Below are positions 1 to 14,000 of a DNA stretch of 64,000 nucleotides, piece by piece. Made by a program: the position numbers and the translations under genes. The stretch spans positions 558,001 through 622,000 of the forward strand of contig SCPD01000002.1 in assembly GCA_005502925.1 (NCBI GenBank). The letters run 5' to 3'. The notes under the pieces are model-generated. The model worked only from the letters and a program-made list of their open reading frames with translations, was not told the origin of the DNA and did not search any database. The DNA comes from Rhizobiales bacterium Y(2018) (GTDB lineage Bacteria > Pseudomonadota > Alphaproteobacteria > Rhizobiales > Aestuariivirgaceae). Position 1 is the first letter of the stretch; every line of letters begins with the position of its first letter.

Positions 1-2
1 TC

Positions 3-686
3 CTGTTCGGCCTCGCCGCCGGCGGCCTGATCGGCGCCGTCATGCATCTCCTCGTCGTCCGCTTCATGCTCGACACTGAAGGCTTCGAGGTCAATATCAT
101 CGTGGCCACGGCCGGCGTCGCCATCCTGCTGCAGGATCTTCTCCTCAAATATTACGGTGCCTATCCGTTTCGCCAGCCGGCGCAGATCGAGGGTGTGTTC
201 CGCATCGGCGATATTGCGGTCACCTATCAATCGGTCGGCATCCTGGTCTTGGCGGCGACGCTCATCGGCGGCATCGCCTGGCTCCTGACCCATACACGTT
301 TCGGTCTCGCCATCCGCGCCACCGCCATGAACCGCGAGGCGGCGCTGCTCATGGGCGTCGAGGCGGGTCGCACTTATCTGCAGGTGCTCATCATCGCCGG
401 CGTGCTCGCCGCCGCTGCCGGCATCCTCATCTCGTCGCTGGCGACGCTCTCGCCTGACATGGGCGCCAATCCGCTGCTGCGCGCTTTCGTGATCTGCGTG
501 GTGGCGGGCCTCGGCAGCGTGACCGGCGCCGGCATCGCCGCCCTGGCCCTCGGCCTGTGCGAGGCGGCGATCCAATATTATCTCGGCGTCCGCTACGGAT
601 TTCCCGTCATGCTCCTTCTCGTCATCATCGTCCTGATCTGGAGGCCCGCCGGTCTGTTCGGCCAGCAGGAGGTCGTCCGCTCATGA
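3..686 (+). CDS. livH: Branched-chain amino acid-type ABC transporter permease, LivH family (5'-truncated by window edge)
   Basis: Inner-membrane permease of a HAAT-family ABC importer. The reading frame is open from the first bases of the window, so the true start lies upstream; 227 residues of C-terminal part are visible. It shows several hydrophobic segments and the typical LivH cytoplasmic loop (residues THTRFGLAIRATAMNREAA, near 290-345), followed by the family ending VLIWRPAGLFGQ. The stop overlaps the start of the next gene (ATGA at 683-686), so the two permeases are translationally coupled. The ATPases and binding protein expected of such a transporter are not in the window and probably lie upstream. 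The substrate is unknown; linkage to nitrile/aldoxime enzymes suggests it need not be a branched-chain amino acid. Confidence 0.9.
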   Translation: MFGLAAGGLIGAVMHLLVVRFMLDTEGFEVNIIVATAGVAILLQDLLLKYYGAYPFRQPAQIEGVFRIGDIAVTYQSVGILVLAATLIGGIAWLLTHTRFGLAIRATAMNREAALLMGVEAGRTYLQVLIIAGVLAAAAGILISSLATLSPDMGANPLLRAFVICVVAGLGSVTGAGIAALALGLCEAAIQYYLGVRYGFPVMLLLVIIVLIWRPAGLFGQQEVVRS

Positions 687-2737
687 TGCCGATGCCTGAA
701 ATGAGCCGGCATCTCCTCGGCGCTGTGTTTCTCCTCGCCGCTCTGTCGGCTCTGCCCTTCCTGGTCACCGAGCGTTACGCCCTGGGCGAGTTCATCACCT
801 TTCTCATCTGGGCTTCGGTGGCGGTGCAGTGGAACGTGCTGACCGGCCATGCCGGCGTCTTCTCGCTGGGACAAATGCTGTTCTTCGCGATCGGCTCTTA
901 TTGCGTCGCGATGTTCGCGGTCTATTTCGGCCTGCCGCCTTGGGCGTCCATGCCGGTGGCGGGACTTGCCGCAGGCGTCGCGGCCTTGCTCATCGGCCTT
1001 GCCTGTCTCAGGCTTGCCGCCGCCTATGTGGCGCTCCTCACCTTCGCCATCGCCTATATGGTCTACACGCTCATCATCACCGATTCTGCCTGCTACATCA
1101 CGACAGGCGGCACCTGCACACCCTTCTTCGGCGGCACCAACGGTTTCTCCCAGTTCGTCGATCTCGGTTTCCGCAAACTGCTGAAAGGCAATTGGATCGT
1201 TGGCAACTACTTCTCGGTCCTCGCCGTCTTCGCGCTCTCTTTCGTCGCCTCGATCATCGTGATCCATGGCCGGCTCGGACTGGCTTTCCGCGCCACCAGC
1301 GACAGCGCCATCTATGCCGCGGCACGCGGCATCAACCGGACCAAGTTCCAGATCATCGCCTTCGTCGTCACCGCTTTTTTCACCGGTCTGGCGGGTGCTT
1401 CCTATGCGGCGCATTTCCGCTTTGCAGGCCCCAGCCTGTTCGAGCTCTCGACGCTCATGTTCGTCCTCTCTATGGTGATCGTCGGCGGTCTCAAATCGAC
1501 CTGGGGGCCAATCTTCGGCGCCGCCTTGATGATGATCCTGGTCGAGGTCGGCAAAAGCATGGGCGATGTGCGCAACACCTTGATCGGGCTCGTGCTGGTG
1601 ATTTTCGTGCTGCTTCTGCCGAAGGGTTTGGCGGGGGCCTGGGCTGCGCTGCTGGACAGGCTGCGCCGGTCAAAGGCCGTGTCACCGAGGCTCGAGCCCG
1701 CCATCCCCCCGCATCTCCAGGTGCCGCGCACCCGCCCACTCGCCGCGCCGGAAGGTTTCGTGCCGACGACGCCGTCTTATTCCGCCCGCTTCAGCCCAGA
1801 GGTGACGGCGCTGCCGATGGCGTTCTTCGGCGTGCAGTTCAGCGAACCTTCGCCGGAGAGCGCCAGGGCGATCGCACTCCAGCAGCAGGGTTTTGCGAAG
1901 CCCTTCGGTCCTTCCTTCTGGGACCGCGCCGAATATGTCGATGAGCGGGGATACACCAACAGTATTCTCGTCGGCTATTGGGACGACCGGCAGACCTATG
2001 ATCGCTGGTGCGCGAGCCTGCCGGAAGACTGGTGGCGGGCCGGTGCGCCGCTCGACGGTGCGCTGGGCTTCTTTCGGGAATGCTACACGCCCTCGATCGC
2101 CGATACCGAAACGACATTCTCGCATCCGCATCCGGAAGGTTATGCGACGATCGCATCGGCGATGAGCGGGATGACCGACACGCATGGTTATTGGGGCAGC
2201 GCCCGCGACCGGATTCCACGCGCCCAGACTGACGACCTCGCTCCACAGTGTGCGCCCAAGGCCGCGCTCGCGGGCGGCAATGATACTTTACGACGCCATA
2301 TCGTCGTGACACCACACGACAATCTGTGCCTGCTGCGTTCCGGCCAGGACTGGACCGATACGGACGCGGAGGAGCGTCGCTTCTATCTGGACATGGTGAA
2401 ATTGAAGCTCGATGAGGGCATGGCTTTCATCCGTGACGAGGGTGAGAAGGTTGGCTGCTACTTCAATCGCTACATGACGCTGTGTACGCCGGCGGGTCCG
2501 GTCGACAAGACCTACAGTCTGAGTGCCTGGCGCAGCCTCTGTGAGCTCGAGGCCTGGGTGAAGACCGACAGCCATCTCGCGATCTTCGCGGCGGGCACCC
2601 GGCACTACCGCACATTCAAGGATGCGAGATTGCGCCTCTATCACGAGATGAGCGTGATCCGGGCCAAGGATCAGTCCTTCGAATATTTCAACTGTCATGA
2701 CCGCACCGGCATGCTCAATGCCCTGAACCGGGCCTAG
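683..2737 (+). CDS. In-frame fusion: LivM-type ABC permease + haem aldoxime dehydratase (Oxd)
   Basis: A single 684-residue frame. Residues 1 to about 330 are a LivM permease (hydrophobic segments, loop GRLGLAFRATSDSAIYAAARG, C-terminal VIFVLLLPKGLAG). From about residue 334 it is an entire phenylacetaldoxime dehydratase (PF13816 family, about 350 residues, normal full length), which dehydrates aldoximes to nitriles with haem b. Residues corresponding to those described for Rhodococcus OxdRE are present: Arg510 (YWGSARDRIP), Ser553 (RSGQDW), the proximal haem ligand His631 (SHLAIF) and catalytic His654 (YHEMSV). No stop separates the two parts. GTG at 1679, exactly at the domain junction, could be an internal start, but I see no good ribosome-binding site before it. 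The start at 683 is set by the ATGA overlap with livH. The enzyme part would sit on the cytoplasmic side if the permease keeps the normal topology (inference). Confidence 0.88.
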   Translation: MMPMPEMSRHLLGAVFLLAALSALPFLVTERYALGEFITFLIWASVAVQWNVLTGHAGVFSLGQMLFFAIGSYCVAMFAVYFGLPPWASMPVAGLAAGVAALLIGLACLRLAAAYVALLTFAIAYMVYTLIITDSACYITTGGTCTPFFGGTNGFSQFVDLGFRKLLKGNWIVGNYFSVLAVFALSFVASIIVIHGRLGLAFRATSDSAIYAAARGINRTKFQIIAFVVTAFFTGLAGASYAAHFRFAGPSLFELSTLMFVLSMVIVGGLKSTWGPIFGAALMMILVEVGKSMGDVRNTLIGLVLVIFVLLLPKGLAGAWAALLDRLRRSKAVSPRLEPAIPPHLQVPRTRPLAAPEGFVPTTPSYSARFSPEVTALPMAFFGVQFSEPSPESARAIALQQQGFAKPFGPSFWDRAEYVDERGYTNSILVGYWDDRQTYDRWCASLPEDWWRAGAPLDGALGFFRECYTPSIADTETTFSHPHPEGYATIASAMSGMTDTHGYWGSARDRIPRAQTDDLAPQCAPKAALAGGNDTLRRHIVVTPHDNLCLLRSGQDWTDTDAEERRFYLDMVKLKLDEGMAFIRDEGEKVGCYFNRYMTLCTPAGPVDKTYSLSAWRSLCELEAWVKTDSHLAIFAAGTRHYRTFKDARLRLYHEMSVIRAKDQSFEYFNCHDRTGMLNALNRA

Positions 2738-2742
2738 CTTGC

Positions 2743-4128
2743 ATGCCGCATTTCACGACACTTGCTTCGGCAGCCGAGGCCTTGCGTGCGAGGCACGTCT
2801 CCGCGCCGGAGCTGCTGCGCGATGTTCTCGACCGGATCGGCAGGGATGATCGTTTCGTCCGCGCCTATAGCGACCTGACCCCCGAAACCGCCGAGGTGGA
2901 AGCAAAGGCCGCGGAACTGCGCTATGCACGAGGGGACATTCTGGGGCCGCTCGACGGCATCCCGATCGCCGTCAAGGACCTGATCGACACGACACCGGCC
3001 ATATGCCGCGCCGGGCTGCCGCAGCTTATGAGCTATCGGCCGCTGCACGACGCCGACGTTGTCGCGCGGTTGCGCCGTGCCGGCGCCGTCATCATCGGCG
3101 TGCTCGAAACCGATGCCGGCGCCTTCGGGACACGCACGCCGCAGGTCATCAACCCGATCGCGCCCGATCTCATCGCCGGCGGATCGAGCGGCGGCGCCGG
3201 GGCGGCGGTCTGCGCGGGGCTCGCCTATGGCGCGATCGGCACCGATACGGGTGGCAGCATTCGCATTCCGGCGGCCTGCTGCTCGATATCGGGATTCAAG
3301 CCGAGCTGGGGACGGGTGAGTACGACGGGCGTGCGTCCCTTGGCGCAGTCCTGCGATCATGTCGGGCCGTTGGCCCGCTGCATGGCCGATCTGCAGGCGA
3401 TCCAGGCGGTGCTCGATCCTCATCTGGAAGATGCGGAGGAGCCGATACCGGCGCTACGGATCGGCATTGCCCCTGATTATTTTGCCGACGCCGACCCGCT
3501 GGTGCTCAAGGCGATGGCGCATCTCCGGTCCGCCTTCGAGCATACCCGTCATCGGGTGATCGATTTGCGGATGCCCGCACCGGACGACATCATGGATTCG
3601 CACATGATCACCGTGACGCGCGAGGCTGCCAGATATCACACCGAGCACTTTCCCGGCCTGTGGCAAGCGCATCCCGATATTGCCCGTGACGGCATAGAGC
3701 TCGGCCGGACATTCAGCGATGCGGACTATGCCCTGGCGCAGGCGCGGCGCCGCCGGATCGCCGATGCGGTGGATGGCCTGTTCCAGACCGTCGACATCCT
3801 GATCCTGCCGACCTTGCCGATCGATGCGCCGGCGCGTGAGGCCGACACCGTGTCCTTGCGGGGCTACAGGATGCCGGTCCTCGAAGCCACCATCCGCTAT
3901 ACGGCGCTGTTCAACCATACCGGCCATCCGGTGGTGTCGATTCCGGCTTTCCGCCTGGCCGACGGCCGGGCGCTGAGCGTGCAGGTCGTCGGCGCCCGCC
4001 ACAGCGACCAGAGATTGCTCGCCATTGCCCGGTATTTGGAGGATATATTCGCCGTGACCATCGACTATGACGATTTGGCTAGAGCCGCGCAGATGGATGT
4101 GCGCCGTTTGCGCCGCCGCTACGCGTGA
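2743..4128 (+). CDS. Amidase, amidase-signature (AS) family
   Basis: 461 residues, normal for AS amidases, which hydrolyse amides to carboxylate and ammonia; in this operon it would take the amide made by the nitrile hydratase. The Ser-cisSer-Lys triad is visible: Lys78 (PIAVKDL), Ser148 in GGSSGG and nucleophile Ser172 in GTDTGGSIR. The start lies 5 bases after the stop of the LivM-Oxd gene and the stop is followed 10 bases later by the nitrile hydratase alpha start, so it is one transcription unit. The exact amide substrate cannot be read from sequence; similarity to Glu-tRNA amidotransferase subunit A is only the family-wide fold, as no GatB/GatC is nearby. Confidence 0.9.
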
Positions 4129-4138
4129 GGAGACCCGC

Positions 4139-4753
4139 ATGCCGCATGATCATGATGACCACGACCACGACCACGATCACGATCCATTGGAGCAGGGCCC
4201 GAGCTTGAGAGTGCGCGCGCTCGAGGAATTGATGGTCGCCAAGGGGCTCATCGATCCGGTGGCGCTCGACCGCATCGTCGAATATTACGAGCGCGAAACC
4301 GGCCCGCGCAACGGCGCCAAGGTGGTGGCGCGCGCCTGGCTCGAGCCGGACTTCCGCGACTGGCTGCTCCGCGACGGCACTGCCGCCATCCATGCGATGG
4401 GCTTCACGGGGTATCAGGGCGAGCATATGCGCGTCGTCGCCAACACGCCCAAGCTTCACAATGTCATCGTCTGCACTTTGTGCTCCTGCTATCCCTGGCC
4501 GGTGCTCGGCCTGCCGCCGGCCTGGTACAAGGGTGCGGCCTATCGCTCGCGCGTGGTGCGTGAGCCGCGCGCCGTGCTGAAGGAGTTCGGTCTCGAGATC
4601 GGCACGGATATCGAGATCAAGGTGTGGGATTCGACGGCGGAAATCCGTTACATGGTTCTCCCCATGCGCCCGGCGGATACGGAAGCCTTCACCCTCGATC
4701 AGCTGGCCGGGCTCGTCACCCGCGACGGCATGATCGGCACCGCGCGGCTTTAG
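4139..4753 (+). CDS. nthA: Nitrile hydratase alpha subunit, cobalt type
   Basis: 204 residues. Catalyses hydration of nitriles to amides together with the beta subunit. The metal-binding claw is VCTLCSCY with Cys112, Cys115, Cys117; Thr in the third place and Tyr after the last Cys are the signature of the low-spin Co(III) class, whereas Fe enzymes read VCSLCSCT. Residues 3-15 are an alternating His/Asp tail ([13 protein letters not shown]) that is not part of the usual fold and may hold or deliver metal (inference). The start at 4139 is chosen because GAGGAGA lies at 4126-4132; the frame continues open further upstream but overlaps the amidase. Confidence 0.95.
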
Positions 4754-4770: not shown

Positions 4771-5436
4771 ATGGACGGTATCCACGATCTGGGCGGCATG
4801 CATGGCTTCGGTCCGGTTCCCATCGAGACCGGCGATTATGTCTTCAAGGCGCAATGGCAGCGCCGGGCCTTCGCGCTGGCGGAGTTGCTTGGGAGCCCCG
4901 TGCCCTATAGCGCCGACCAGCACCGCCAGGAGATCGAGCGGATGCCGGCTGCCGACTATCTGAAGCTGGATTATTTCGAGAAATGGATCGTCGGGGCGGA
5001 AGCCTTGCTGTTGCAGGCCGGGCTCGTGAGCGAGGAGGAGTTGCGCACAGGGCGCAAGCTCTTCGACGTCGATGTTGCCCGTCACCCGAAAGTCGATGCC
5101 GGAAATCTCATCGCCACTATGCGCGCCGGCGCGCAGCTGGATTTTCCAGATGACGCGCAGAAGCCACGTTTCACCGCCGGACAGAATGTGCGCGTGACGA
5201 AGGATTCGCCCTCCGGCCACACACGGTCACCGCGTTATCTGCGTGGCAGGGCGGGACAGGTCGTCGCCGGTCACGGCGTGTTCCAGTTCGCCGATGCGGT
5301 CGCGGCGGGCCGGGGGCCGGAGCCGCAGCATTGTTACACCGTCGCCTTCACCGCCGGCGAGCTCTGGGGCCGTGATGCCGAAGCCGCGGATATGATTCAC
5401 GCCGATCTGTGGGAGAGCTATCTTGAACCAGCTTGA
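4771..5436 (+). CDS. nthB: Nitrile hydratase beta subunit
   Basis: 221 residues, typical for the family. Begins MDGIHDLGGMHGFGPV, the hallmark N-terminus of beta subunits, and ends with the SH3-like C-terminal barrel found in the family (KDSPSGHTRSPRYLRGRAG ... GELWG ... DLWESYLEP). Forms the alpha-beta heterodimer with the product of the gene 17 bases upstream. GGAG at 4757-4760 is the likely ribosome-binding site. The end overlaps the activator gene by 14 bases. Confidence 0.95.
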   Translation: MDGIHDLGGMHGFGPVPIETGDYVFKAQWQRRAFALAELLGSPVPYSADQHRQEIERMPAADYLKLDYFEKWIVGAEALLLQAGLVSEEELRTGRKLFDVDVARHPKVDAGNLIATMRAGAQLDFPDDAQKPRFTAGQNVRVTKDSPSGHTRSPRYLRGRAGQVVAGHGVFQFADAVAAGRGPEPQHCYTVAFTAGELWGRDAEAADMIHADLWESYLEPA

Positions 5437-5806
5437 TGATCATCGCCTGGCGATCGCGGCGCTCGAACAGGCGCGGCCGCAGAATTCCCAATTATTCCAG
5501 GCGCCCTGGCAGGCGCGCATCTTCGCCCTCATCGTCGAAGCGGTCAAAGCGGGTCATTTTCCCTGGACCGATTTCCAGGCCCGTCTGGTCGCCGCACTTG
5601 CGCGTAACGATGACGCTGACGGTTGCGAGAGCGATGAACTCATCGAAAGACACTATTTCGATGCCTGGCTCATCGCCGCCGAGGAAACGCTTCAGGCGCT
5701 GGGCCTGATCGCGGCCGGCGAAGTCGACCGGCAGATCGAAACCGTGCGCGCCGAGGTCGACAGAATCCGCAGCATTCAGCAGCCGCTGGCCTTCATCCAC
5801 AAATAG
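5423..5806 (+). CDS. Nitrile hydratase accessory protein (P14K/activator type)
   Basis: 127 residues. Small beta-subunit-like proteins of this kind (WQARIFALIVEAVKAGHFPWTDF, EETLQALGLI) act as metallochaperone or self-subunit-swapping partner that loads cobalt into the alpha subunit. It starts with TTG at 5423 inside the beta-subunit gene, with GGGAGAG at 5411-5417 as ribosome-binding site; an ATG at 5436 is in another frame. Order alpha-beta-activator is that of Co-type operons. It closes the plus-strand operon and meets the LysR gene tail to tail 3 bases later, with no obvious terminator hairpin between them. Confidence 0.85.
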   Translation: MNQLDDHRLAIAALEQARPQNSQLFQAPWQARIFALIVEAVKAGHFPWTDFQARLVAALARNDDADGCESDELIERHYFDAWLIAAEETLQALGLIAAGEVDRQIETVRAEVDRIRSIQQPLAFIHK

Positions 5807-5809
5807 AGC

Positions 5810-6727
5810 TCACTCGACCTTCAACTGCTCCTTGGCCATCGCCATGAGCAGGTCGTAGAACTTCACCTCGGCAGGGGTGCGCGCGGCGGATTTCCGCCGG
5901 ATCACTTCATAGGTCGAGTCATAGGCGTAAAGCTCGGGCCGGATCGTGCGCATCTGCTTCTTCGCCGTCCATTGCTCGGCATAATGGACCGGGAGGAAGG
6001 CCAGATACTGTCCCGACAGGATGAGATGAGCGAGGCCTTCGATACTATGGGCCCGCGCGGTGAAATTGAGATTGCGCTCATTCTCGGGCAACTGATCGGC
6101 CGAGACATAGCCGCGTTGCGCATGTTCGCAGGCTTCGATGGCGGCGAGATCTATTTTGGGCGCCTGCTTATAGAGCGGATGTTTTTTGCCGCAGAACAGC
6201 TCCATGCGCGAGGTGAATATCGGCGCATAGCTCAGCTGCGACAGCCGGCGCGGGAAGAAGCCGATGGCCATATGCGCTTGGGCGCCGAGGACCATTTCCT
6301 CGAGCTTGTTCGGCGGCGCGACATGGACGGTGAAATCGACCGAATGAGTGAGCTTGCCGAAGCGCTCGATGGCGTCGCCAAGCTGGAATTTGTGGTGAAA
6401 GACGGCATTGTCGATGATGCCGATCTGCAGCTCGCCGACCAGCCGGTCATGGCCGAGCGCCACGCTGCGGAAGTCTTCGATGTGATTGAACAGTGCATTG
6501 GTCGCGTCATAGACGCGCTGGCCGTCTTCGGTGAGCGCGAAGCCGCCGCGGCCGCGCTGGCAGAGCGACATGCCGAGCCGCGTCTCCAGATTCTTGATGT
6601 GGATGCTGATCGTCGCCTGGCTGACATTGAGCTCGGTCTGCGCAAGCGCGAAGCCGCCGCTGCGCGCCACCGTCATGAACACATGCAGGAGCTTGAGATC
6701 GACATTGCTGATCGAGGGAATTGTCAT
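5810..6727 (-). CDS. LysR-family transcriptional regulator
   Basis: 305 residues, standard LTTR length. N-terminal winged helix-turn-helix at about residues 10-65 (LLHVFMTVARSGGFALAQTELNVSQATISIHIKNLE), followed by a periplasmic-binding-like effector domain. It is divergent from the M20-type hydrolase, with a near-perfect palindrome at 6752-6771 between them, and convergent with the nitrile hydratase operon. By LTTR habit it most likely controls the divergent hydrolase; control of the nitrile operon is possible but its promoter is outside the window. Effector unknown. Confidence 0.92.
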   Translation of the reverse strand: MTIPSISNVDLKLLHVFMTVARSGGFALAQTELNVSQATISIHIKNLETRLGMSLCQRGRGGFALTEDGQRVYDATNALFNHIEDFRSVALGHDRLVGELQIGIIDNAVFHHKFQLGDAIERFGKLTHSVDFTVHVAPPNKLEEMVLGAQAHMAIGFFPRRLSQLSYAPIFTSRMELFCGKKHPLYKQAPKIDLAAIEACEHAQRGYVSADQLPENERNLNFTARAHSIEGLAHLILSGQYLAFLPVHYAEQWTAKKQMRTIRPELYAYDSTYEVIRRKSAARTPAEVKFYDLLMAMAKEQLKVE

Positions 6728-6751
6728 CGCCGCAAAACTTAGAGGATGTTC

Positions 6752-6771
6752 AAAGCGAATATTATCACTTT
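6752..6771. promoter_or_regulatory. Probable LysR binding site
   Basis: AAAGCGA-N6-TCACTTT: inverted repeat with 6 of 7 positions paired, AT-rich centre, lying 24 bases upstream of the LysR start and about 55 bases upstream of the divergent hydrolase start. Position and shape suit the activator site of a LysR-type regulator. It falls inside the 5' extension of the hydrolase frame, which argues against the longer start at 6746. Confidence 0.45.
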
Positions 6772-6826
6772 CGGATGGGTCAATATAGCGGCTTCAGCGA
6801 GAAAGTGGAGATGGTTCAACGGGGCA

Positions 6827-8080
6827 ATGCGTGTGGCGGTGGGCAAGCTGAACAGGATGGAGATCGATATTGCGCGGCTTTGGCGCGATCTCGACGCGTC
6901 GGCGCGAATCGGCCCGGGCCGTGCCGGCGGCCTCAGCCGTCTGGCCTTGGGCGACGCCGACAAGGTCATGCGCGACACTTTCGTGACCTGGTGCAAGGAA
7001 GCAGGCTTGGGCGTGCGGATCGATGCCTTCGGCAACATCTTCGCCCGCCGCGCCGGCCTGGAGGAGTCCGCGCCCGCGATATTGATCGGAAGCCATCTCG
7101 ACACCCAGATCGCCGGCGGGCGTTATGACGGCATATTGGGTGTGCTCGCCGGGCTCGAAGTCATTCGGACATTGAACGATCACGCTGTGGCGACGCGGCG
7201 CCCCATCGAGATCGTGAGCTGGACCAATGAGGAAGGAGTCCGCTTCCAGCCGCCGATGCTGGGATCAGGGGCTTTTGCGGGCATATATGATCCTGACTGG
7301 GTTCATCGCCAGCTGGATGGCGGCAGATCGACCTTCGCCGCGGAATTGGAGCGCATCGGCTATCTCGGCTCCGACAGTCTGTGTCCCGCACATTATGAGT
7401 CCTATTTCGAGCTTCATATCGAGCAGGACGAAGTGCTCGAGGCAGAGGGGCTCCATGTCGGGATCGTGACCAGCGGCTTCAAATCCTTCGGCCTGGAGCT
7501 GTGCGTGACCGGTGAGAATGCGCATTCCGGGCCGACACAGATGCGCCGCCGACGTAACGCTCTCGTAGGCGCTTCCCTGTTGATTGCGAGGCTCAATGAG
7601 ATCGGCTGGTCGCATGAGCCGGAAGGGCGCACGACCTGTTCCCGCCTGACGGTCGAGCCGAACCGCTATGGGATCATTCCGCATCTTGCCGAATTGACCG
7701 TCGATCTGCGGCATCCCGATGCGGCGACGGCGGCGGACATGTGTTCGCGATTCCGCGACTTCCTGCCACTCGCGGCGCGCAAAGCGAATGTCGAGATTGC
7801 AGTTGCAAGGGAATGGAGTTTCGGCGACTTCGCCTTCGACGCGAAGCTGATCAATCTCGTCCGCAGCGTCGCCTCGGATCTCGGCGTGTCACACCGGCAT
7901 CTTATGAGCGCGGCTGGACACGACGCCTATAATATCTCCAAGGTCATCCCGACCGTGATGATCTTCACGCCGTGCCGGGACGGCATCAGTCACAACGAAA
8001 GCGAGCACATCGAGCCGGCCTATACCGCGCCGGGTGTGAATGTGCTGCTCAACGCGGTCCTGCGCCGCGCCAATGCCTGA
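6827..8080 (+). CDS. M20-family Zn amidohydrolase (hydantoinase/N-carbamoyl-amino acid hydrolase/allantoate amidohydrolase type)
   Basis: 417 residues from ATG 6827 (ATG 6857 is an equally possible start; family members are about 400-415 residues). Hydrolyses an N-carbamoyl or ureido amide. Metal ligands of the family are visible in order: His in SHLDT, Asp in GGRYDGILGV, Glu in WTNEEGVRF, His in LHIEQ and the late His in GISHNESEHI. The substrate-orienting segments GHDAYN and the dimerisation domain with ENAHSGPTQM are present. Stands alone downstream of a divergent LysR. Whether it belongs to the neighbouring nitrile pathway (for instance to process N-carbamoyl products) is inference. Confidence 0.85.
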   Translation: MRVAVGKLNRMEIDIARLWRDLDASARIGPGRAGGLSRLALGDADKVMRDTFVTWCKEAGLGVRIDAFGNIFARRAGLEESAPAILIGSHLDTQIAGGRYDGILGVLAGLEVIRTLNDHAVATRRPIEIVSWTNEEGVRFQPPMLGSGAFAGIYDPDWVHRQLDGGRSTFAAELERIGYLGSDSLCPAHYESYFELHIEQDEVLEAEGLHVGIVTSGFKSFGLELCVTGENAHSGPTQMRRRRNALVGASLLIARLNEIGWSHEPEGRTTCSRLTVEPNRYGIIPHLAELTVDLRHPDAATAADMCSRFRDFLPLAARKANVEIAVAREWSFGDFAFDAKLINLVRSVASDLGVSHRHLMSAAGHDAYNISKVIPTVMIFTPCRDGISHNESEHIEPAYTAPGVNVLLNAVLRRANA

Positions 8081-8829: not shown

Positions 8830-9291
8830 TCAGCCGCGGCCACGATAGGGGGCGACGCCCTGGTCGGGAAGCCAAAGGCCCTTCGGCGGTTCGCCGGTCT
8901 GCCAGAAGACATCGATCGGAATGCCGCCGCGCGGATACCAATAGCCGCCGATGCGCAGCCAGATCGGCTTGGCAGCTTCGCAAAAGCGCTTCGCCACATA
9001 GACGGTGCAATGCTCGTGAAAGGCGCCGTGATTGCGGAAGCTGTGCAGGAAGAGTTTCAGCGACTTCGACTCGACCAGCAGCTTGTCGGGTGCGTAGTCG
9101 ATGACCAGATGGCCGAAATCCGGTTGGCCGGTCACCGGGCACATGGAAGTGAATTCCGGGCAGGTGAAGCGGGTGAGATAGAGCGTGCCTTCCTGCGGAT
9201 TGGGCACGACATCGAGCTCTGCTTCTTCCGGCGAAGCGGGAATAGCGGCGCTGCGGCCGAGCTGTGGTGTGGGGATGGAGTTGCTTGTCAT
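8830..9291 (-). CDS. queF: NADPH-dependent 7-cyano-7-deazaguanine reductase (QueF, unimodular)
   Basis: 153 residues, size of the short (Bacillus-type) QueF class. Reduces the nitrile of preQ0 to the amine of preQ1 in queuosine synthesis. The thioimide-forming Cys51 and catalytic Asp58 lie in the family motif [14 protein letters not shown], and the QueF motif [20 protein letters not shown] follows. Precedes the transporter-like gene in the same operon. The divergent cytochrome gene starts 96 bases away, so the promoters lie in 9292-9387. Confidence 0.95.
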
Positions 9292-9387
9292 GACGGCTTT
9301 CTACCACTTCCGGCTGAAGCCGAATATGGGTCATTGGCGGAAGTGACGGTCGCCGGTTATGCTCGGGCGATCTTTGGGAGGACGCAG

Positions 9388-10230
9388 ATGCTTGCGCGGT
9401 TAATTGGATTCTTGGCTATGGCCGTGTGCTTGCACATATCGGCAGCTCTTGCCGCGGACAGCGAGGTCCTGCGCTTTTCGGTTCGCGGCAAGCTCATCAC
9501 ACAGATGAGCATGGCGGAGCTGAAGCAAAAGCTTCCCGTCACGGAGATCACCGTATGGGAGCCGCATGAAGACAAGAATGTGACATATGAAGGCTACGAG
9601 ATCGGCAAGCTCTTCGCCGCCGTCTATGGCGACACGTGGAAAGAGATCGACGAGGTGCTGTTCACCTGTGTCGATGGCTACCAGCCCATCCTGCCGATGG
9701 ACCGGTTCACCCGTCATGCCGGCTATCTCGTCTACCGGCGACAGGATCAGGCGGTGTTCAATGTCCAGAACCGCTTCCAGAATGAAAAGGACGTGCCGCT
9801 CGGGCCCTATTACCTGGTCTGGGACAATCTCAGCTCCGCGGAGCTGCGCGCCGACGGCGCCAATGGCTGGCCTTATCAGGTGGTCGGCATCGATCTGGTG
9901 AATTTCGTCGACCGCTTTCCGCGGCTCAGTCCGCCGGAAGACGCCTCGGCCCAGGCGAAGAAAGGTTTCGTCGCCTTCCGCGAAAACTGCATGGCCTGCC
10001 ACACCGTGAATGGCGAAGGCGGCGACAAGGCGCCCGAGCTCAATTACCCGGTGAGCGTCACCGAATATGTTCCCGATGCGTGGCTGCGCAAGTGGATCAT
10101 GGATCCGCGCACGATCCGCTACAATGCCACCATGCCGGCTTTTGCCGCACACCCCGAGCCGGACGTCCTGATCGACGACGTGCTCGCTTATCTGAAGACG
10201 ATGGCGCGGCATAAACAGAAGCCCGACTAG
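9388..10230 (+). CDS. Secreted c-type cytochrome with N-terminal YedY/molybdopterin-oxidoreductase-like domain
   Basis: 280 residues. Signal peptide at 1-22 (RLIGFLAMAVCLHISAALAA), then about 160 residues of a beta-rich domain (VTEITVWEPHEDKNVTYEGY ... FTCVDGYQPILPMDRF) resembling the substrate domain of sulfite-oxidase/YedY-like proteins but without a recognisable cofactor Cys, then a monohaem cytochrome c domain with CMACH and a distal Met in ATMPAF. Start at 9388 is fixed by GGGAGGA at 9376-9382 and the signal peptide; the long frame upstream is antisense to queF and not coding. Likely a periplasmic electron carrier; partner unknown. Confidence 0.75.
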   Translation: MLARLIGFLAMAVCLHISAALAADSEVLRFSVRGKLITQMSMAELKQKLPVTEITVWEPHEDKNVTYEGYEIGKLFAAVYGDTWKEIDEVLFTCVDGYQPILPMDRFTRHAGYLVYRRQDQAVFNVQNRFQNEKDVPLGPYYLVWDNLSSAELRADGANGWPYQVVGIDLVNFVDRFPRLSPPEDASAQAKKGFVAFRENCMACHTVNGEGGDKAPELNYPVSVTEYVPDAWLRKWIMDPRTIRYNATMPAFAAHPEPDVLIDDVLAYLKTMARHKQKPD

Positions 10231-10324
10231 CCAATTCTATCCGTAGAGAACTTTATGCCTCCGGCGCCGTTAACCAAGCGGCCTGCCAAAGCGGGGCCGC
10301 GCTTTTCCGAGCCGGAGTGTGCTG

Positions 10325-10708
10325 ATGAGCAAGCTGTGGCCGTTCTTCGCCGTGATTGTCACCGCATTGATCTACCCGGTGACCCCGCGCATCGTCCTGG
10401 CGCACGACTGGTACGGCTACACTGCCGATCCCGTATATCAATCGAACTGTTGTGGCGGCCATGATTGCGCGCCGGTGGATCCGGCCTGGGTCAGCGAGGC
10501 TCGGGAAGGTTATCGGCTGACCATGACCGTGGACCAGGCGCGGACGGTCAATCCCGATGCGCAGGCGCCGGTTGATGCCGTCGTGCCCTGGACCAGAATC
10601 CAAAGCCCGCCCGAGGCCGATCATCCGTTTTATGCCTGCATCTACGATACCGACCGCGCGGCGCCGCGTTATGGCGTGATCTGCTTCTTTGCCACGCCTG
10701 TCATGTAG
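10325..10708 (+). CDS. Small secreted Cys-containing protein, unknown function
   Basis: 127 residues with a signal peptide of about 28 residues ending near IVLAHDWYG. The mature part has CCGGHDC close to its start plus two later Cys (YACIYD, VICFF), suggesting disulfides or metal binding in the periplasm. GGAG at 10315-10318 supports the ATG at 10325. It follows the cytochrome gene by about 95 bases on the same strand and may be co-transcribed. I do not recognise a named family; homologues annotated as hypothetical are likely. Confidence 0.65.
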   Translation: MSKLWPFFAVIVTALIYPVTPRIVLAHDWYGYTADPVYQSNCCGGHDCAPVDPAWVSEAREGYRLTMTVDQARTVNPDAQAPVDAVVPWTRIQSPPEADHPFYACIYDTDRAAPRYGVICFFATPVM

Positions 10709-11015
10709 GCGCCGCTGTTCCAGACGTGGAACCGTTTGCGGAAGTGCATCCCGTGGTCACCTTGCCCTGTACATTTTTGGCAGCTTCCCGGATGAGTTCG
10801 GGGCCGCGGCCGGCGGCTCTATTCGGCGTGCACCGTACCACTGTGGCACAACAGCGACATCAACGGCGCTATGTTTACCAGCGACCATGAAAATCAGCGG
10901 CATGCTATTGTTTTGACTGGACGTAAAGTCAATGAGGGTATACTTAAGAAATAGATAACGGCGACAGAGTTGCGAGCGATTCTGGGGGCAACGCTGGCGG
11001 CGGGCAAAGGGGAAA
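10709..11015 (+). promoter_or_regulatory. 307-base upstream region of the giant autotransporter gene with candidate operator/promoter
   Basis: No convincing frame fills this gap. TTGACT at 10913-10918 and AGTCAA at 10927-10932 form an inverted repeat with an 8-base spacer, so the -35-like hexamer is also half of a possible operator. TATACT at 10939-10944 could be a -10, though 20 bases is a long spacing. AAAGGGGA at 11006-11013 is the ribosome-binding site of the next gene. Confidence 0.35.
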
Positions 11016-14000
11016 ATGAGGCACGCAAACGGGCTCGTGGTTTTCACGACGGTGAGAGCTATTGCGTCTCCGACTACCCCCAATCATCTGGCAAAACTGT
11101 TTTTAGGTTCCGTCGCCACGGCCGCGCTGTGGCTGGGCGCGCCGTCGATCGCCGTTGCGGGCTGCGTCGTGGCGCCCGGCGTCATCACCTGCACCGGCGA
11201 CATGCTGGCCGGCGCCAACTATTCGCAAGCCAATACGACGCTCACCGCGAATGCGCTGTCGACCAATGCCGGCGTGATCATCCTCAGTGGTTCGGGCGGC
11301 AATGGCGGCAACGGCACCGATGGCATCGGTGAAAATGCCGACGGCGGTGGCGGCGGCACGACGACGATACTGAATTACACCGGCACGCCCCATACCGGCG
11401 CTGGTCTCGTCGCGCGGTCGAATGGCGGCAATGGCGGCGAGGGTGGAACCGGCGTCTCCTTCATCATTCCCATACCCGTCCCGCCCTTTGTCGCGCCGGT
11501 GATCATAAATGCCGGGCATGGCGGCACGGGTGGGAATGGCGGCTCCGTCACCGTCAACAGCAGCGGCGACCTTCTGACGTCCGGCGAAAAGGTTCACGGC
11601 ATCCTTGCCGAAGCGAATGGCGGCAATGGTGGCGATGGCGGCAATGTAACCTCGGTTCTCGGTGTCTGGGGCGAAGGTGGAGACGGTGGTCAGGGCGGCG
11701 CCGGCGGCTCTGTCGCCGTAACGACGACCAGTGGACTCATCACCGTGCAGGGCAAAGGTGCCTCCGGCATCTTTGCGCAAAGCAATGGCGGCGTTGGCGG
11801 CAGCGGCGGCTCTCTCAACGGCGCCGCGATCGCCGGCCAAGGCGGCAGCGGGGCCGCGCCCAAGGACGGCGGCACGGTGAATGTGAGCAACGCCGCGGGC
11901 ATCGACACCTATGGCATAGGCGGCATCGGTATTTTCGCTCAGAGCATCGGCGGTTATGCGGGCTCGGGCGGCAGTGCCACGGGGGCTTTCGCCTATGGTG
12001 GCAGCGGCGCGAGCGCCGGCAATGGCAACACGGTTACCGTCGGCAATTCCGGATTGATCCATACGCGGGAGGTCGATGCCCATGGCATCTTCGCCCAGAG
12101 CGTCGGCGGCGGCGGCGGTGCGGGCGGTTGGAGCGGCGGCGTCGTTGCTCTCGGCGGCAGCGGCGGCTTCGGCGGCGCCGGCAAATCGGTCACGGTCACC
12201 AATTCGTCGGCCGGGGTGATCACTACCGACGGCGCACGCTCCATCGGCATTTTCGCCCAATCGGTGGGCGGTGGCGGCGGCGATGGCGGTAATAGCGGTG
12301 GCCTCGTCTCGATCGGTGGCAGCAGCACGGGCGGCGGCACCGGCGGCACCGTCGTGGTCAACAACGCCGGTAAGATCGTCACCAACGGTGTTTCCTCGCA
12401 GGCCATTCTTGCCCAATCGATCGGCGGTGGTGGCGGCAATGGCGGCACCAGCGGTGGCATGGTTACGATCGGCGGTGCCGGTGGTGGCGGCGGCAATGCC
12501 GATACCGTCACGGTCAATAATTCCGGCGACCTCGAAACCTGGGGCAATGATTCGACCGCCCTCCTGGCACAGAGCGTCGGCGGCGGCGGCGGCAGTGGCG
12601 GCGGCGCCTATTCGGGCTCCGCATTCGTCGGCTTTTCCCTGGGCGGCACGGGCGGCAGTGGCGGCGAAGGCATGAAGGCGACGGTCAATCTGTCGCAAAA
12701 TTCCAACGATCCGGCGATCATCAAGACGCATGGCGAGCGCTCGAATGGCGTGACCGTTCAATCGGTAGGCGGCGGCGGCGGCAATGGCGGCGCCAGCGTG
12801 CAGACCACTGTGGGCTACACCGGCAGCCTGGCGATCGCCATTGGCGGCAAGGCCGGGAGCGGCGGTAAGGGCGGCGAGGTCGAGCTCACGGGCTATGCGG
12901 ATGTCACCACCACGGGTTTGAATTCCGACGGCATCCTGGTGCAGTCGGTCGGCGGCGGCGGCGGCAGCGGCGGCTATGCGATTGCCATTTCGGCAGCGGC
13001 CGGCGAGAGCGCGGCCATTGCCGGCGCGATCGGCGTCGGCGGCGCGGGTGGCGGCGGTGGTAATGGCGATCTGGTCACCGTCAATGCCGGCGGATCGATC
13101 AAGACGACGAATGACTTTTCCGAAGGCCTGATCGCTCAGTCGGTCGGTGGCGGTGGCGGCTCGGGTGGATATTCGGTGTCGATCGCCGTTTCGGGCGCCG
13201 GCGCCACGGCGGGCGCCGGTGCGGTCGGTGTCGGCGGATCGGGCGGCACGGGCGGCATGGGTGGGACCGTGATCGCCACCTTTACGGGCAATGTCGAGAC
13301 CGCCGGCAAGGAATCCGATGGCGTTGTCATCCAGTCGGTCGGCGGTGGCGGCGGCAATGGCGGTTTCTCGGTTGCCGCCGCGGTCTCGGGTGCGGGCACC
13401 GGCAGTGGCGCGGTGGGCATCGGTGTGGGCGGCTCGGGTGGCTCCGGCGGTAATGGCGGCATCGTCAATGGCACGGTGAACGGCAATATCAAGACCACGG
13501 GCGCCGGGTCGAACGCTCTCGTCGTTCAGTCGGTGGGCGGCGGCGGCGGCAATGGCGGCTTCAATGTGACAGGCACCATCGCGGGTGCCGGCACCGGATC
13601 TGGGGCGATATCGATTGGTGTCGGCGGCTCGGGCGCCGGTGGCGGCCACGGCGCGGCGGTCACGGCGAAGCTGACCGGCAATGCCACCACGAGCGGAACC
13701 GACGCCGATGCGGTCGTCGTTCAAAGCGTCGGCGGCGGCGGCGGTAATGGCGGCTTCAATGTCTCGGGCACCATCACCGGTGCGGGAACCGGATCGGGCT
13801 CCGCCGCCGTGGGTGTCGGCGGCGCCGCGGGACTTGGCGGTAATGGCCAGGTGGTCATCGCCGACGTCATCGGCAATATCACGACGACCGGCCTCGATTC
13901 GAACGGCTTCACCGCGCAATCGATCGGCGGCGGTGGCGGCAATGGCGGCTTCAATGTTTCGGCGGCGATTTCGGTCTCCGGCAAAGGCGCGGGCGCGGTT

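Follow-up and report, generated by a model that had tools for sequence, protein, structure and literature searches.

Is the membrane subunit of a bacterial importer also an enzyme that acts on what may be imported? The question is raised by one open reading frame in a 64,000-nucleotide stretch of the Rhizobiales bacterium Y(2018) genome (contig SCPD01000002.1, positions 558,001 to 622,000; hereafter the window, with coordinates counted from its first letter). Within this frame a permease of the LivM type, a subunit of ATP-binding cassette (ABC) importers, continues into a haem aldoxime dehydratase (Oxd), the enzyme that opens an aldoxime-nitrile pathway. We consider it likely that LivM-Oxd is a true gene fusion which has been maintained by vertical descent and specifies one bifunctional membrane protein with the dehydratase on the importer.

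One reading frame for a permease and an aldoxime dehydratase

The frame at 683-2737 is free of stops over 684 aa and its translation computes to 75.18 kDa. The gene and its parts are as follows.

667-672, plus strand: AGGAGG ribosome-binding site of the fusion gene, read in the sequence (anti-Shine-Dalgarno duplex -11.0 kcal/mol)
683-2737, plus strand: LivM-Oxd fusion gene, 684 aa, stop TAG at 2735-2737, assigned with Pfam and NCBIfam and conserved in two genomes of the genus (G003 and G002)
683-1639, plus strand: LivM-type permease half, residues 1-319, with PF02653 at residues 38-308 and a ratio of non-synonymous to synonymous substitution rates (dN/dS) of 0.04-0.08
1640-1690, plus strand: linker, residues 320-336, basic (DRLRRSK), variable in sequence, two codons longer in G002
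1691-2734, plus strand: haem aldoxime dehydratase half, residues 337-684, with R510, S553, H631 and H654

In the Pfam scan, the permease domain (BPD_transp_2, PF02653) is matched at residues 38-308 over profile positions 7-268 of 269 (99.7 bits against a cut-off of 26.8), and Dehydratase_hem (PF13816) at residues 380-677 over positions 1-310 of 310 (260.3 bits against a cut-off of 25). The E. coli-type LivM subfamily model NF008450 gave 106.4 bits and its cut-off of 366 was not reached. The C-terminal half is probably an active haem aldoxime dehydratase, as far as its sequence can tell. It matches OxdRE (3a15, E = 3e-75) and an OxdA-type structure (3w08, E = 6e-74) in the PDB by sequence, with both structures aligning from fusion residue 336/337 onward, so that the whole catalytic domain is shared, at 38% identity to OxdRE over the structural alignment. 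Residues R510, S553, H631 and H654 align with Arg178, Ser219, His299 (which we take to be the haem ligand) and His320 of OxdRE, and all four are invariant across 20 alignment rows. Roles for Arg178, Ser219 and His320 of OxdRE are assigned in PMC5391958. In an AlphaFold2 model built from the 20-row alignment, the Oxd half mostly exceeds a predicted local distance difference test (pLDDT) score of 80 per 10-residue block, with residues 501-540 reaching only 52-70, and its top Foldseek match is again OxdRE (3a15_A, E = 7e-35, target-normalised template modelling score 0.86). The half shares with OxdA and OxdRE its active-site residues and, in its gene neighbourhood, the pathway partners nitrile hydratase and amidase; unlike them, it sits behind a permease and lacks a methionine at position 1. 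OxdA is described as a free-standing enzyme of Mr 40,127 (PMC5391958).

Five genomes of the genus were examined, the window genome included, and Oxd is present in three of them, each time as the fusion. G003 and record L066 (Aestuariivirga sp. YIM B02566) are one genome, counted a single time; G002 is a single 7.18-Mb contig. The fusion proteins of G003 and G002 are 94% and 87% identical to that of the window. By the Nei-Gojobori method, dN/dS of the permease half was 0.04 (window-G003), 0.08 (window-G002) and 0.08 (G003-G002), and that of the Oxd half 0.10, 0.11 and 0.14 for the same pairs; by this measure of sequence change, both halves are under purifying selection. For the linker, the window-G003 value was 0.57, from just 15 synonymous sites, and no value could be computed with G002, where an in-frame 6-nt indel makes it two whole codons longer. 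At the DNA level, window and G003 align collinearly at 91% identity for 8.9 kb; the alignment opens shortly ahead of the transporter's binding-protein gene and runs to the end of the compared stretch, and further upstream G003 has no match. Window and G002 align in three pieces of 77-82% identity spanning 15.8 kb, with a gap of ~1.6 kb well upstream.

These genomes bear directly on two trivial explanations. The window genome exists as a 37-contig draft, and an assembly or sequencing error might have erased a stop or a frameshift; no support for this was found, and the same fusion in G003 and in single-contig G002, at protein divergences of 6% and 13%, makes the probability of such an error negligible and led to its rejection. 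Chance read-through of a non-coding upstream frame was rejected as well, since the upstream half is a full and conserved LivM domain. Caution on this point is warranted because in GC-rich DNA an open upstream frame can mislead when taken alone: the Oxd loci L169 (780-aa frame, the case in point), L043 (556) and L048 (551) each have a frame that extends far upstream through what seems, by eye, to be non-coding sequence. With the frame open in two further genomes of the genus over nearly its whole length, neither chance nor base-call error accounts for the fusion. A preliminary description, made from the sequence alone, had proposed a whole LivM joined in frame to a whole Oxd, a size of about 75 kDa and the retention of all four key Oxd residues, and had suggested a search for homologues with both domains. 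The full-length PF02653 and PF13816 matches in one 684-aa frame, the computed mass, the correspondence with the OxdRE residues and the two counterparts within the genus bear it out on each of these points.

Start codons at the junction and the origin of the fusion

A single frame would not guarantee a single protein, and the dehydratase could mostly be made as a separate soluble enzyme, initiated in or just past the linker, with the fusion polypeptide minor or harmless. We regard this as improbable. Codons 317-359 contain no in-frame ATG, GTG or TTG common to the window, G003 and G002. The candidate GTG333 (window 1679) reads GCG in G003 and has no counterpart in G002, and its anti-Shine-Dalgarno duplex energy of -2.4 compares with a mean of -1.9 for a background of 44 internal start-like codons (10th percentile -5.6, minimum -6.9); a separate start there is the alternative that the preliminary description had named as refuting the fusion, and it is a poor one, the codon being neither conserved nor strongly preceded. 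ATG322 is present in G003 and in G002, where its energy is weak (-2.6), and is GCG in the window. The start of the fusion gene, at -11.0 kcal/mol, is the strongest of the eight cluster starts scored. The starts of 61 unfused Oxd genes, mainly from Bradyrhizobium with a few beta- and gammaproteobacterial records (loci L068-L145, restricted to those that span 13,000 bases or more and have ATG at position 6001), average -10.0, while the unfused genes of the actinobacterium Dactylosporangium sucinum and of Aminobacter sp. SS-2016 score -7.4 and -6.6. Where the Oxd match begins, 78 of 80 loci have a start codon; the fused L066 has CTC there. From these codons and energies, the usual strong ribosome-binding site of Oxd is gone at the junction and a conserved separate start is lost.

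Internal initiation nevertheless has evidence in its favour, which counts against the dehydratase being made only as part of the fusion. GTG360 is common to all three genomes (-6.3 in the window, -3.8 in G003, -5.3 in G002), and G003 also has ATG322 (-6.6) and GTG324 (-5.6); the energies of these three codons lie in the low tail of the background and match the Aminobacter Oxd start. Additionally, LivM (8917-9951) and Oxd (9948-11051) on the Aminobacter plasmid pANY103d (L146) share a 4-nt overlap, GTGA, in different frames, so that coupled translation in the past is plausible. Some free or truncated Oxd produced by internal initiation is thus possible. On the other side, initiation at codon 360 would remove I341, H344, L345 and R349, each invariant in the 20 rows, and the reading frame is maintained across a linker that otherwise diverges.

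The same Aminobacter pair bears on how the fusion arose. The preliminary description had attributed it to loss of the permease stop codon, and this comparison of sequences makes such a simple origin doubtful. As the unfused genes overlap in different frames, plain stop loss would not join them and an indel or small deletion would be needed; the fused linker is also shorter than the corresponding Aminobacter stretch. This argument has a single outgroup, at 56-65% identity. The junction had further been equated with the native N-terminus of Oxd. It does fall at the start of the Oxd fold, but the nearest unfused enzymes begin further upstream, by 7 residues in Dactylosporangium (L067, MNGNAEK-LEPAIPP) and by 13 in Aminobacter, and both are without a methionine at the usual place, so the description of this point as the native terminus is not supported.

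The aldoxime-nitrile cluster and its unfused relatives

The fusion gene belongs to a cluster that begins upstream of the window, where a Peripla_BP_6 binding protein, two ATPases and the first part of LivH are encoded, and continues within it.

1-686, plus strand: LivH-type permease gene, 3' part (PF02653; frame L038:7808-8686, starting 193 bases before the window)
2743-4128, plus strand: amidase (PF01425)
4139-4753, plus strand: nitrile hydratase alpha, with a CTLCSC metal motif and a His/Asp-rich N-terminus (TIGR01323, 296.2 bits, above cut-off)
4771-5436, plus strand: nitrile hydratase beta (TIGR03888, 211.3 bits, above cut-off)
5423-5806, plus strand: nitrile hydratase accessory protein (TIGR03889, 60.7 bits, above cut-off)
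5810-6727, minus strand: LysR-type regulator, conserved with the cluster, 64% to Aminobacter
6746-8080, plus strand: M20 hydrolase of the hydantoinase/carbamoylase group, start uncertain (TIGR01879, 343.9 bits, above cut-off; 62% to Aminobacter)

The end of LivH overlaps the start of the fusion gene as ATGA, and the order is binding protein-LivG-LivF-LivH-[LivM-Oxd]-amidase-nitrile hydratase. The adjacent Oxd, amidase and nitrile hydratase genes on one strand constitute an aldoxime-nitrile pathway cluster, in keeping with the role of Oxd as the first enzyme of a nitrile pathway that the preliminary description had assigned. The CTLCSC motif of the nitrile hydratase alpha subunit is presumably of the cobalt type. 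The 20-residue His/Asp-rich tail at its N-terminus (window 4139-4198) has a similar counterpart in the Dactylosporangium alpha subunit (GHDHRDADGHAGHSHDPLEMG) and could assist metal (cobalt) loading. The LysR regulator and the M20 hydrolase both accompany the cluster in Aminobacter, and the presence of such a hydrolase beside an aldoxime-nitrile pathway may hint at a substrate of the N-acyl or N-carbamoyl type.

The plasmid pANY103d carries the orthologues of these genes in unchanged order (LysR, binding protein, LivG, LivF, LivH, LivM, Oxd, amidase, nitrile hydratase alpha, beta and accessory protein), with gene-by-gene identities to the window cluster of 41-75% and the M20 gene on the opposite side of LysR. 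The difference lies in LivM and Oxd, which are two overlapping genes in different frames. As Aminobacter has the same cluster unfused, transporter and pathway were linked before the fusion. The plasmid is typed as conjugative, with transfer genes at one side, and the strain record gives Lotus japonicus as source. It is speculation that the natural substrates of the cluster are aldoximes or nitriles from cyanogenic plants. In Dactylosporangium, two Liv-type ATPase genes, amidase, M20, nitrile hydratase and Oxd (65%) are found in another order; the stretch compared covers the ATPases and the pathway genes and contains no permease genes. Together the Aminobacter and Dactylosporangium clusters extend the co-occurrence of transporter and pathway beyond the fusion, and sequence comparison suggests that a transporter-plus-nitrile module may have been transferred laterally.

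The fusion itself was seen only in this genus (three of five genomes) and not in the samples searched elsewhere. At the order level, 22 of 397 genomes scored above the PF13816 cut-off, the window genome included, and when the permease half was compared with 25 Oxd loci from this sample the one match was the window itself. A class-level sample searched with the Oxd protein gave matches in 4 of 385 genomes and a phylum-level sample had 13 of 398 above cut-off, each including the window genome (the order, class and phylum samples overlap), and the class of Dactylosporangium had 5 of 345, Dactylosporangium included; these last three samples were judged by open-frame length alone, with only L169 inspected closer. 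Genome-contig Oxd loci were the best 80 of 431 relatives, viewed up to 6 kb upstream and in some cases less, and among these and two plasmid loci a LivM or LivH relative was present only in L066, L146 and L147, the last from Roseovarius. For plasmids (570 matching records), one of the matches listed covers at least 80% of the query and is the unfused Aminobacter record. Viral contigs contained no permease relative and one Oxd relative.

Membrane side, coupling to uptake and significance

The side of the membrane on which the dehydratase sits was approached through relatives of LivM, as the permease half is poorly predicted and has no PDB relative by sequence search. LivM-type frames in four other genome regions (L158, L159, L162 and L163) have the order permease-ATPase-ATPase by Pfam, in all four scanned. 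These came from seven regions chosen for long frames, of which four had Walker A and signature motifs and were then scanned; L160, L161 and L164 had no frame with both ATPase motifs and no Pfam scan, so that the four of four is not a frequency. The ATPases of ABC transporters are cytosolic, which places the C-terminus of LivM, where these homologues bear them, in the cytosol, and the basic linker DRLRRSK is consistent with the positive-inside rule. From this analogy we strongly infer that Oxd lies on the cytosolic face, tethered to the importer. LivM-Oxd thus resembles the LivM-ATPase fusions in its permease family and in having a cytosolic domain after the permease domain, the partner being a catabolic haem enzyme rather than an ABC ATPase. 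Likewise it shares with the LivM of high-affinity branched-chain amino acid/amide (HAAT) importers (PF02653) the whole permease domain and the order binding protein-LivG-LivF-LivH-LivM, but its C-terminus continues into an enzyme where theirs ends. No Walker A motif was found in the frames of seven paralogous LivM loci of the window genome. One LivM paralogue of that genome (L005, G000:C36:64467-65360, minus strand) is extended at its C-terminus by more than 100 aa, and frames of similar length with like matches occur in G003 and G001.

In the proposed mechanism, the binding protein with LivG, LivF, LivH and LivM would import the substrate as a HAAT-type system, and the short basic linker would hold Oxd on the inner face, where the imported substrate, or an aldoxime derived from it, would be dehydrated near its entry. 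Nitrile hydratase would then convert the nitrile to the amide, and amidase the amide to acid and ammonia. The most likely effect of the fusion is to bind dehydratase and importer in a 1:1 ratio. Its benefit may lie in this stoichiometry, in trapping a reactive aldoxime locally or just in expression. Metabolic fusions are usually explained by relief of bottlenecks, avoidance of toxicity or complex assembly, among other reasons, and transporters are among the common partners (PMC4921024). A stronger version is a one-protein device for uptake and conversion, in which the channel mouth feeds the attached haem dehydratase, reactive aldoxime becomes nitrile before it spreads in the cytosol, and nitrile hydratase and amidase are perhaps docked as a membrane metabolon; we offer this as a tentative possibility. 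Such a device would be, to our knowledge, the first ABC importer subunit with an attached catabolic enzyme that acts on the imported cargo.

Several observations weigh against the proposed mechanism. A Roseovarius sp. W115 plasmid (L147, 677-9414) carries an orthologous binding protein-LivG-LivF-LivH-LivM set (56-62% identity), and the plasmid, which was the only part covered, contains no Oxd match; the substrate of the transporter therefore need not be an aldoxime. The neighbours of this set are genes for an aminotransferase (class III) and a histone deacetylase (class II), and an IS3 transposase follows LivM, which makes loss of the remaining genes possible. The NCBIfam OxdA equivalog model NF050090 matches residues 337-679 (model 1-345 of 349) with 304.6 bits, under its cut-off of 600; by sequence the half is an Oxd homologue, not necessarily the same enzyme as OxdA, and its exact substrate class may be another. 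In the AlphaFold2 model, residues 1-339 have pLDDT <50, with 2 of 20 rows covering them, and the permease half is not trustworthy.

It is accordingly a possible, though doubtful, alternative that the fusion is real and that the link fixes only stoichiometry or expression, with the importer carrying other cargo (an amino acid, amide or nitrile) and entry uncoupled from dehydration. In addition to the Roseovarius genes, this is consistent with transporter subunits that score on Liv and Urt models only under the curated cut-offs, and with a Peripla_BP_6 binding protein whose nearest solved relative, 3h5l, is titled only 'putative Branched-chain amino acid ABC transporter'. Membranes can also be crossed by simple aldoximes and nitriles, which are small molecules. 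Conversely, the transporter adjoins aldoxime-nitrile genes in Aminobacter, as do two Liv-type ATPase genes in Dactylosporangium. Tethering of Oxd to the importer is well supported, whereas an aldoxime as the imported substrate and any benefit of hand-over are only inferred. Of the preliminary proposal that Oxd is tethered to the import channel and dehydrates aldoxime as it enters, the tether stands and the timing stays conjectural, given a Roseovarius transporter without Oxd.

The preliminary description had known of no transporter-aldoxime dehydratase fusion, and none is mentioned in the literature searched, within a coverage that mostly excludes subscription journals and in the portions of the sources available. 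A term search of the accessible main text of two reviews of aldoximes and Oxds (PMC8955678 and PMC11568032) returned no instance of 'fusion', 'fused', 'transport', 'permease' or 'membrane'. Although its parts are familiar, the architecture, a transporter-enzyme fusion in an aldoxime-nitrile cluster, is new to us. Natural gene fusions report functional links, and LivM-Oxd connects one particular ABC importer with a haem aldoxime dehydratase, which provides a genetic handle on the bacterial uptake of aldoximes or nitriles. With an unfused sister cluster in Aminobacter, it constitutes a natural test of whether joining channel and enzyme is of benefit. The fusion may also be a ready-made membrane-anchored form of an enzyme family used in cyanide-free nitrile synthesis.

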